This document shows positions 33,833 to 60,563 of a DNA stretch of 64,000 nt, piece by piece. The DNA lies in contig CM050673.1 in NCBI GenBank assembly GCA_027574665.1, positions 7,363,420-7,427,419 on the forward strand. The letters are read 5' to 3'. Position numbers and translations under genes: made by a program. The notes under the pieces were generated by a model. It was given only the letters and a program-made list of their open reading frames with translations. It did no database searches and had not been told where the DNA came from. This DNA comes from Rhynochetos jubatus (lineage: Eukaryota > Chordata > Aves > Eurypygiformes > Rhynochetidae). Position 1 is the stretch's first letter; the number at the start of each line of letters is the position of its first letter.

Positions 33833-36800
33833 TCAATCACAAATTCTCCTGCAGGTCACTGGAGAAAAAGTAGAGCAACATTAGTTGATTGGAACAGAGA
33901 GGAAATCCTTCAAATTACAGAAGTTTGGTCTGTGTCGTGCCCTTGTTTCAGAAATACACCCTGCTGAACAAGAGCGGTTGGCAGACAACCCCGGCAACCC
34001 CAGAAATTCCCTAAATAATTGTGTTTTAATGGGAATTTGCACTTGTAAAGTTACGGATTTGCTCTTCTTTTCACTCCTTCCAGACTCTTTTGCTGAGCTG
34101 GCTGGCTGGTGTCTTCTCTGCTTCTCCTGCCTGATCTTTTCCTTATGCCTCATTTCCCCAGCTTTCTCCTTTTAGTCCTACTGCTCCCTCTTGTCTCTCG
34201 TTTCGCTCTGCCACTCCAGCTTGTCAGAGCTCTCTTTAAACCTGTCTCTCAGGGAAACAGCCCATTTGGCATCGCGGTTGGCTCCATTGTAACAGTTCGT
34301 ACCTGGGGTGTAGTAACTCTGGGAAGATACCAGTAACATGTCCTGGGAGCGTGTGTTGTCTCCCGGCCTTATTGCAAAGGAACAGACAACAAACCGGTTT
34401 TCCTTACCTTGTAGATCGGCAGTCTTGCAGGGTGGGACTTGGGGCTGGCAATGGGATGCTGAGGGTGTACCATAGGTGTGGCTTGTCCTAATGACTCCTC
34501 CTCCTACACCGGTTCCTACTCCGATTCCTCCTCCATGACTAGTGGGATAAATTTGATGAGAGAAATAGGGAATTTTAGAACTTTACATGACATTGCTGAC
34601 TGACTACATGACACAAAGTCTCAAACTATGTTCTTTGGAGGGGTTAGGGTACTTTACATTGCGTTCTCTTTTCATTTTCAGAGTTGCTTTGCATTTGTGC
34701 CCTCCTTTGGCATGAAAATGCAATGCAGCTTAGCAATTAATTCGTATCTCGCCACCTCTCTACAGAAAGGAGTGCTGATGTAATGCTTGTAGTTGCAGTA
34801 CTGTAACTAGCAGTTAACAGATTTGGTTTCTCTGCTTTGCAAATCCCAGGGAGTGACACTGAGTTCAGATTCGAATGTTCATCACAGTAAATGAGACAAC
34901 TTTTTCACCTCAGTGAAAGCATTAAGATGGACTAAAGATTATCTCGGATTCCCAGTCCATCATCCAGATCCTTGATATTTTCATGTATTTCTTTATCCCT
35001 TTAGCGATCTACGTACATAAGGTCCTGCTGTCCTCCTTCCAACAAGCACCGGTAGGTCTGAATCTCCTGCTCCAGACGGCACTTGACGTCCAATAAGGTC
35101 TTGTACTCTTGGTTCTGGCACTCTATTTCCGCTCTTATTTCAGCCAATTGCTGCTCTACGCACGTGATCTGGTTCTGTAGCTCACCGAGGAGGGTGTTGT
35201 ACTGGCACTCGGTCTCAGCCAGAGAGGATTCCAAGTTATTTCTCTGATGAACAAGACAACCGAACAAAGAAACAACATTCCTGTAAGTGTCACCCTGGAG
35301 GTTATTATTTCCAATGCAAAACTGAAAGAGCTTTTCAGCACCATCGTGCTGGTCGGTAGGGCTGGCTGTTCGTGCCAGGAAGCCCAGCAGTAACCACGTC
35401 ACGGGAGTCAGTAAGCTCATCACTTACCTGGCTGAGCTGAGCTTGGAGATCGATTTCCAGGGCTTGCAATTGGCGTCTCAGTTCGGTAACCTGGTTGTTG
35501 CATGTCTCTACCTCCTGACCGCTTGTAATAACCTCCCGATTCACCTCCTCAATCTGAAATCACCAACCAGAATAAAGAGCTTCAGAGAATATCTGTGCAA
35601 ATTGGACCTGCTTTCACAGAACCAGAGTGTAGCTAGCAAAATAGAAGTGAGCAGGGCGAGTTCTCTGTGCACTGAGCGTTAACTGCCGGCTGCCACTGCC
35701 TGCTCTTTTTACAAGAGCATTAATCTTGCGGCTCTTAAGTCTCTTTAATGTGGAATTTCTCAGATCCAAGAACACCCCACAAGGCCTTGCGGCAAATACT
35801 GCTGTTCCAGATGGGACATAACGAACTGGTTGGACAGGCCTGTGTCTCTGTGGAACACGGGGTGTAATGAGGGCTGGTCTGGGCTTCATCGCAAAGGAAG
35901 AGCTGCTTATTGTCTCCACGTCTGTCTTCTGAAGTGCTCCTGTGCCCTGCAGTGCCAGTCAGCTTGTTTTGCAGCAGCTTACCTTGCATTCATACCAATC
36001 CTCGACTTCCTTGCGGTTGCGCGCTATCAGTGTTTCATACTGGCATCTCAAATCCTCCAAGATTTGCCTGAGATCGGGTCCAGGGCAGGCATTGACCTCC
36101 ACACTCACATCTCCAGTCGATTGTTTCCTCAGACAGCTCATTTCCTGGAAATACAGCCCAGATCAGACACATCCTGGCTTTTGAGAGACATGGCAGAAGG
36201 GCAGAGGGCTAAGAACAGCTCTCCCTGTGGCACATGCCTCCCGTAAAGCTCTGGAAGATGGTGCAGGTGTTTTCCCCGCTAAATCTCTTGGGTAATTTCT
36301 TTCTCACCCGCTGGAGTCAGCAGCAACTTGTGCTCCAACGCCAGCACAGCCCTGAGAGGAGCCAGAGTTCCTGCACCCCCAGGACCCAGACAGGTCTGAA
36401 CCCAGGAGTGTGGGACGGGGGAGCTGTGGCGTGACAGGGGCTGATCTGTGCTTTCAACGTTAGAGCACATCGGTGCAGGCTCAGTTTGGTGTCAGGACTG
36501 TGGCGCTCCCAGGGAAGGGCAGGACCCTACCTCCTCGTGGTTCTTCTTCAGGCAGCAGAGCTCCTCCCGCAGCGATTCCAGCTGTGCCTCCAGGTCAGAC
36601 CTGCACAGCGTCAGCTGGTCCAGGACCTGGCGCAGCCCGTTGATGTCAGCCTCCACGCTCTGGCGCAGGGCCAGCTCCGTCTCGTACCTGGTTTGTGCAA
36701 GAGAGCAGAAATTCAGAACGGTAACTTCTCACATGGGCTCGTTTGTGCAACGATCTCCTTTCCCCCTCCTGCTCTAGGCTGTGTGTTGTCCATGTTGTCA

Positions 36801-59700: not shown

Positions 59701-60563
59701 CCAGGGCACCTCCGAGACGCAGCTATAGCCACAGCTGTAGGCACAGCTGTAGACACAGCTATAGGCACAGCTGTAGGCACAGCTGTAGGCACAGCTATGG
59801 GCACAGCTGTAGGCACAGCTGTAGGCACGGCTATAGCCACGGCTGTAGGCACGGCTGTAGCCACGGCTGTAGGCACGGCTATAGGCACGGCTGTAGCCAC
59901 GGCTGTAGGCACGGCTGTAGGCACGGCTGTAGGCACAGCTATCACTGCTGCCTTTGGACAGCCGTCTATCCACAGGTCACAGCAAAGGCCAAAGGAATAG
60001 GAGAGCTTTCTTGAGAAACAATGATTTACCTGGTTTTGAAGGTCTTCGATTTCCTTATGAAAGCAGCTGTAGTCCCGGGGTTCGCAGCTGGGCCCTACTT
60101 TGGCATACCACTCCCTGATCTTGCACTCCAGGTCGGCATTGTCCCCCTCCAGCAGTCGCACCTTGTCCAGGTAGGAGGCCAAGCGGTCGTTGAGGTTCTG
60201 CATCGTCGCCTTTTCGTTGTTAGCAAATAAGATGCCATCCCCGCAACCAGCGCTAGCCCTGGGGAGACCCCCACCAATGCCTCGGGGGCAGATGCCTCCA
60301 CCGACGAATCCCAGGGTCGAACAGGCCCTTTGGGTAGCTCCAAAGCTCCCACCGGTAGCACTGCCGACACTCAGCTGTTTCCCGAGTAATCCCTCGCTTA
60401 AACTGCCACCAGAAAAGTTGCCAGCCGCAGCACCGAACTCATAGGCAGCATGTCTTCCCGAGGAGGAGGAGGAGACCTTTATTCCATTACCGGCTGCCGA
60501 GCTGCCCGCGCTGCTCCTGCCTTGGGAACAGGTAGTGACGACCTGCCTGACGGCGCAGCTCAT
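56783..60563 (-). CDS. Gene F: cysteine-rich type I alpha-keratin, tail uncertain
   Basis: Exons 1-6 are secure: 60030-60563, 59370-59452, 58920-59076, 58667-58828, 58204-58329, 57856-58082. The head (about 1-120) starts [18 protein letters not shown]; it is less Gly-rich than in D and E. The rod begins [19 protein letters not shown] and holds about 19 Cys, including sites not in D/E ([29 protein letters not shown]). Exon 7 is my best guess at 56783-56870: a strong acceptor (CTCCCTTCCACAG), phase fits, and the peptide [17 protein letters not shown] then [12 protein letters not shown] partly matches E's GQSSGL region. The stop lies 27 nt before a donor (56756), and a likely last exon begins at 56257 or 56260 and runs to the poly(A) signal near 55969, so the end of the protein differs from D and E. 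An ancestral reading frame there would lack the CRRICD stop. With this exon 7 the protein is about 458 residues. The start at 60563 is 92 bp from the TATA box. Confidence 0.85.
59103..59284 (-). mobile_element. CR1 LINE 3' end fragment in gene F intron 2
   Basis: The + strand starts TCATAGAATCACAGAATCAT and GGGATGGTTTGGGTTGAACG, the reversed CR1 terminus, and runs about 180 bp. It fills most of intron 2 (59077-59369). Confidence 0.9.
59719..59943. repeat. 12-bp minisatellite in gene F intron 1
   Basis: About 19 copies of (A/G)GCTGTAGGCAC(A/G)-type units, with GTAGCC and ATAGGC variants. It lies 87 bp inside intron 1 from the donor at 60029. Because the period is a multiple of three, exon 1 appears to read on through it as (A)VPTAV repeats; this is intron. 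Confidence 0.92.

Follow-up and report, generated by a model that had tools for sequence, protein, structure and literature searches.

Have hard keratins become rich in cysteine more than once, and which genes would carry the record of it in a bird? The question is raised by a stretch of 64,000 nucleotides from Rhynochetos jubatus (GenBank assembly GCA_027574665.1, contig CM050673.1, positions 7,363,420 to 7,427,419; C28:7363420-7427419 in the source genome of 1.33 Gb and 148 contigs), hereafter the window, which holds six type I keratin genes, here called A to F, every one on the minus strand (tblastn with a human K14 query). From the letters of the window, the original prediction had singled out D, E and F as a triplet of cysteine-rich type I keratins in a bird array and had argued that hard-keratin chemistry arose separately in this lineage. 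D, E and F are, with a probability that we put at about 94%, this bird's orthologues of the avian HAS keratins KRT9LC1, KRT9LC2 and KRT9LC3, which are K9-like type I keratins. They are already described sauropsid-specific hard keratins, the gene group and the idea of its separate origin both being known.

Cysteine content of D, E and F

The rods of D, E and F contain 18, 18 and 19 cysteines, respectively, each in 308 residues (28, 26 and 26 in the whole models), in line with the 17-19 in some 310 residues counted at the outset. The low figures given then for the neighbours also hold, with two in 307 residues for B and none in 195 for the part of A within the window (2 in 312 once A is completed from adjoining DNA), to which can be added C, left unmentioned at the time, with one in 307. 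Taken together, D-F have 55 cysteines in 933 rod residues versus 17 in 3297 for the cluster's 11 remaining modelled type I rods (Fisher p 6e-23), which carry 0-3 each and two of which (A2 and T3) were modelled without exon 1. The shared cysteine motifs quoted in the prediction recur in all three genes, with the variant EEMCCLK in F, and 16 of the 21 cysteine columns found across D-F are occupied by cysteine in all three.

Five of these 21 columns are also cysteine in at least one of K31, K32 and K36 (human sequences with 12 cysteine columns together; hypergeometric p 5e-4), while the remaining 16 are no hair-keratin cysteine columns. An overlap above random, combined with mostly private sites, agrees with PMC7086170, in which several convergent sites with hair keratins are described and most others are private. 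By a simple heptad register, 13 of 16 coil cysteines in D, 13 of 16 in E and 13 of 17 in F fall at b, c or f, and one in each gene at a or d; for 16 coil sites the binomial p is 0.002 (b/c/f) and 0.03 (a/d), D, E and F not being independent samples for such statistics. This placement on the outer face would suit cross-links between molecules.

Match to the published HAS keratins

In PMC7086170 (2019), where the name is credited to a 2008 paper, HAS keratins are cysteine-rich type I keratins with more than 20 cysteines that lie 3' of KRT14, number three in birds and are flanked by KRT9-like genes; K9 is given as their closest mammalian keratin and they are regarded as convergent with hair keratins. 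The definition is repeated in PMC11816140 and PMC11704414. D-F resemble the HAS/KRT9LC1-3 keratins of chicken and other sauropsids in each of these respects: they have type I rods, more than 20 cysteines, K9 as nearest relative and a position outside the hair keratins (among the 11 human type I keratins used), and there are three of them, placed 3' of KRT14 among KRT9-like genes.

The published chicken pieces with which single genes could be matched are short (a peptide and a primer for E, a primer for F, none for D). The last 15 residues of E are identical (15/15) to the antibody peptide of chicken KRT9LC2 (HAS2; PMC8742010), to which D is identical at 10 of 15 positions, and the KRT9LC2 forward primer of the same source matches E at 20 of 21 positions (46187-46207), with three mismatches in F, five in B, C and D and at least five in all others. 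The chicken KRT9LC3 forward primer (PMC12821399) fits F best, matching at 16 of 20 positions from 60171 with four mismatches that are all synonymous in the LDKVRL frame, followed by A (5 mismatches), B, C and E (6) and D (7). On this sequence evidence E can be equated with HAS2 with near certainty, and F is probably HAS3.

Integrity of the three genes

Exons were placed with the help of AG/GT splice sites and of the lengths typical of type I keratin exons (83, 157, 162 and 126 bp, followed by an exon 6 of 227 bp; Table 1). The limits of 33833 and 60563 set by the prediction coincide with the end of the D stop codon and with the F start codon. Head and rod of D, E and F are uninterrupted by stops; D and F match Pfam Filament (4.1e-107 and 1.4e-100), and the best PDB match of E is K10 (6.8e-39), with vimentin near-equal (8.3e-39) and K14 next. 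Nonsynonymous divergence (dN) is below synonymous divergence (dS) in all six exon segments for the pairs D/E, E/F and D/F, which identifies the three as genes under constraint. All three also have in common 19 bp on the 3' side that include a poly(A) signal.

The tails are less uniform. In D and E the last exon has 26 bp including the stop, and the proteins end in VTCRRICD and VPCRRICD, respectively. No such ending and, among the tail protein matches listed, no D/E-like tail exons were found for F, where a motif search of the region was empty and a DNA comparison gave short pieces only, the shared 19 bp being one of them; its putative tail exon is weakly recognised and has an early stop. It could be argued from this that at least one of the three genes, F being the likeliest, is decaying. 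This is improbable given the open head and rod of F, the presence of all its rod splice sites, its dN below dS against both D and E, and the expression of chicken KRT9LC3 as mRNA and protein reported in PMC12821399.

Position in the cluster and phylogeny of the rods

Read in the direction of transcription, the cluster consists of two KRT14-like genes, F, E, D, C, B, A, A2, a KRT19-like gene, a KRT13-like gene, the divergent T3, a KRT20-like gene, a KRT10-like gene and one fragment (C28:7265001-7465000, with 197 N; 14 genes entered the tree and the last fragment was left out), all genes from the KRT14-like pair to the KRT19-like gene being on the minus strand. D-F are thus flanked by K9-like genes and lie between KRT19-like and KRT14-like genes, as K9 does in the human gene order. 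The 17-rod tree unites A-F with human K9 (100/99), with D-F as a clade of their own inside that group (100/100) and the hair keratins (K31, K32 and K36) as a separate clade. By tree and by cluster position, human K9 and the avian KRT9-like genes A, B and C are the nearest relatives of D-F, from which they differ in their cysteine-poor rods (1-3 cysteines in A2, A, B and C; 2 in human K9). Four genes of this genome pair with human K10, K13, K19 and K20 (97-100/95-99) and the KRT14-like pair joins K14 and K17 (87/82); such pairing of own genes with human counterparts provides a check both on the tree and on the human sequences used. Long branches were flagged by the tree program for T3, K18 and K9.

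Could D-F be orthologues of the mammalian type I hair keratins (KRT31-40) kept in a bird? Raised cysteine is common to both, as are the five columns mentioned above, more than expected at random; exon 3 of D and E has LTLC..DLEAQ.ESL.EEL.CLK in common with hair keratins and, with cysteines counted, K36 is the row nearest to them in this exon outside the pair (81%). However, a clade of D-F with hair keratins is rejected by the approximately unbiased test for the 17 rods (p-AU 0.0022), with all 30 cysteine-bearing columns masked (p-AU 0.0012) and with eight further rows from this genome (p-AU 0.0025), where the K9-like group is supported at 93/95. Moreover, D-F do not occupy the position of the hair keratins in the human cluster, which lies away from KRT14 and KRT19, hair-keratin rods have fewer cysteines (K31 and K32 have 7 each, K36 has 10) and mostly at other sites than D-F, and none of the 14 cluster genes in the tree groups with hair keratins. 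Hair-keratin orthology is, on balance, scarcely credible. An origin of D-F as KRT14 duplicates that gained cysteine, to which their Gly/Ser-rich heads and the two directly adjoining KRT14-like genes might point, can be set aside with similar assurance, because the test rejects a clade of D-F with the own and human K14-group genes (p-AU 5e-6) and exon 6 has 227 bp in all seven modelled K9-like genes (A2 and A-F) versus 218-221 bp in seven other type I genes (cluster-wide, modelled lengths were limited to five values between 218 and 230 bp).

These results bear on the argument from which the original prediction had started. The type I rod tree that it had proposed was run with own-genome and human rods and placed D-F outside the hair keratin clade, the opposite of the outcome named there as fatal. 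Its appeal to K14-like heads is not supported, D-F being K9-like by their rods, the part that was compared. Its claim of a separate rise of hard-keratin chemistry stands as regards separation from hair keratins, but the lineage concerned is, by PMC7086170, that of all sauropsids rather than of this bird. The sequence comparisons support the view that the cysteine richness of D-F and that of mammalian hair keratins arose separately. With its own synteny and a cysteine-masked tree test, this additional bird genome confirms what had been published, namely that hard keratins have gained their high cysteine content more than once.

Several points weigh against equating D-F with KRT9LC1-3. The assignment of D to HAS1/KRT9LC1 comes from elimination and gene order. 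Against E, the KRT9LC2 reverse primer has 4 mismatches in 21, the KRT9LC3 reverse primer is non-discriminating (four mismatches in A, D, E and F alike), and neither the former nor either KRT9LC3 primer gave a match at three or fewer mismatches; judging by primer mismatches, this genome differs from the chicken reference. The tail exon of F, picked by eye from splice sites and a weak likeness to exon 7 of D, is tentative. The heptad register assigned to the coils is weak in several places, and expression in hard appendages is carried over from the chicken papers. As for the trees, of their 11 human type I sequences only K10 and K14 were seen, in stretches, in PDB alignments, the letter make-up of D, E and F was flagged as unusual by the tree program, and the splitting order of K9, A-C and D-F is weakly supported (46/17). 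With cysteine columns masked, p-AU was 0.27 both when A-F were grouped apart from K9 and when D-F were grouped with it.

For one KRT14-like gene, G1, a joined tblastn piece that runs through introns had hair K36 as its top match (30.8% identity); once spliced, G1 groups with K14 genes.

Probable gene conversion in the array

The similarity between D and E is distributed unevenly. In exon 3 they show one synonymous difference in 37.7 sites (dS 0.027), versus 73 in 155.7 sites in the other five exon segments (dS 0.26-1.25 per exon; Fisher p 4e-8), and near-identical DNA tracts are found around exon 3 and at the 3' end (Table 1). Exon 3 of F is only 67-68% identical to that of D and E, so a general strong constraint on this exon does not explain the D/E identity. 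A second conversion tract is exon 6 of B and C (7544-7318 and 22245-22019; dS 0.034 versus 0.76-1.6 in their other exons), while exon 4 of E and F is a less clear case (dS 0.28 versus 0.78-2.9 in other exons). The likeliest reading of such uneven dS is that exon-sized tracts have been converted within the array, which is well supported for D and E. When the tree is built from exon 3 only, with cysteines masked, it joins F to C and B (85/80). D, E and F together are then not the preferred clade, although that clade is not rejected (p-AU 0.083), and the remaining exons give it at 100/99.

Conversion might spread the HAS cysteine pattern, and part of the hair-like convergence in coil 1B might be due to a transferred exon 3, acquired perhaps once from a hair-keratin gene since lost; we consider this very doubtful. 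A hair donor for D/E exon 3 gave p-AU 0.35 in the same masked exon 3 data, in which D and E are identical to K36 at 37 of 45 positions and to the bird's own K10-like gene at 39 of 45. Since the latter is at least as near as K36 once cysteine columns are removed, a hair-keratin donor is not supported. No description of gene conversion in avian type I keratins was found in the literature, as judged from search listings, which is no proof of absence, and the pattern represents a minor addition to a known gene group. In practice, trees built from whole HAS1 and HAS2 genes can mislead, as can expression estimates for the two from short reads, given the near-identity in exon 3 and at the 3' end.

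Proposed function and partners

In chicken, the proteomes of beak, claw, feather and scale contain HAS1 and HAS2 in abundance (PMC7086170), KRT9LC2 protein is present in scutate scales (PMC8742010), and KRT9LC3 protein is enriched in the egg tooth, its mRNA occurring in the egg tooth and the early beak and, at a later stage, in the wing as feathers form (PMC12821399). If the tissues are the same in this bird, D-F would act in keratinocytes building hard appendages and would pair there with type II keratins, probably cysteine-rich HBS keratins of type II encoded by this genome. Candidate partners of this kind are three cysteine-rich type II keratin pieces on contig C36 near 2.064, 2.074 and 2.095 Mb (L040, L039 and L035), with at least 4 cysteines in the matched piece of L040 and 9 in each of the other two. 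The cysteines of D-F, located mostly on the outer coiled-coil face and in head and tail, may be oxidised during cornification, and the resulting disulfides between filaments and other cysteine-rich proteins could stiffen scale, claw, beak, egg tooth and feather and render them insoluble.

Features of the window

Table 1. Keratin genes, exons, putative conversion tracts and probable poly(A) signal in the window (positions in the window)
Feature	Position	Strand	Details and basis
Gene D, HAS1/KRT9LC1-like type I keratin	33833..38652	minus	466 aa, 28 Cys, 8 exons; splice-consistent open model; HAS1 by elimination and gene order only
Gene D exons	38652-38164, 37300-37218, 36687-36531, 36144-35983, 35553-35428, 35243-35017, 34538-34408, 33858-33833	minus	TGA stop in last exon
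Gene E, HAS2/KRT9LC2 orthologue	44779..49593	minus	503 aa, 26 Cys, 8 exons; gene model, C-terminal peptide, primer, PDB keratin matches
Gene E exons	49593-49009, 48048-47966, 47420-47264, 47054-46893, 46478-46353, 46240-46014, 45737-45592, 44804-44779	minus	
Gene F, HAS3/KRT9LC3-like	56783..60563	minus	458 aa, 26 Cys; model with tentative tail exon; best KRT9LC3 forward primer match
Gene F exons	60563-60030, 59452-59370, 59076-58920, 58828-58667, 58329-58204, 58082-57856, 56870-56783	minus	last listed is the tentative tail exon, with stop inside
Probable poly(A) signal of F	55969..55974	minus	inside 19-bp stretch common to D, E and F
D exon 3 tract	36516..36691	minus	176 bp, 99.4% identical to E 47424-47249
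E counterpart of exon 3 tract	47249..47424	minus	DNA identity and exon dS
D 3' end (AATAAA 33594-33589) and downstream	33214..33628	minus	415 bp, 98.3% identical to E 44523-44109; putative conversion tract
E counterpart of 3' tract (AATAAA 44489-44484)	44109..44523	minus	DNA identity
Gene C, cysteine-poor K9-like neighbour	22019..25373 (exons 1-6)	minus	rod 1 Cys; Gly-rich tail exon near 21.4 kb outside model
Gene B, cysteine-poor K9-like neighbour	7318..10932 (exons 1-6)	minus	rod 2 Cys; Gly-rich tail exon near 6.4 kb outside model
Gene A, cysteine-poor K9-like neighbour	187..2094 (exons 1-4)	minus	runs on past window start

The avian source that had been proposed from the letters is supported by the size of the genome, which is in the range of a bird's, by all 150 scored beta-keratin candidates of the genome, which match Pfam Keratin, and by three copies of a CR1-like 3' signature in the window (12394-12410, 43913-43929 and 59104-59120; 0.03 expected). 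Beta-keratins and the CR1-like 3' pattern both point to a bird. An Rfam scan gave nothing at gathering scores, and a search for relatives in viral_contigs returned three stretches that fitted a pattern, none of which was confirmed.

A 15-bp tandem repeat of 17 copies lies between C and D (31948-32205) and intron 1 of F contains a 12-bp tandem repeat with about 18 copies (59720-59940). Pieces of a single repeat, seen in translation, lie near 12.5, 19.6, 43.8 and 59.2 kb. A2, located outside the window about 9 kb further on (C28:7354117-7356473), is a near copy of A and a recent tandem duplicate.

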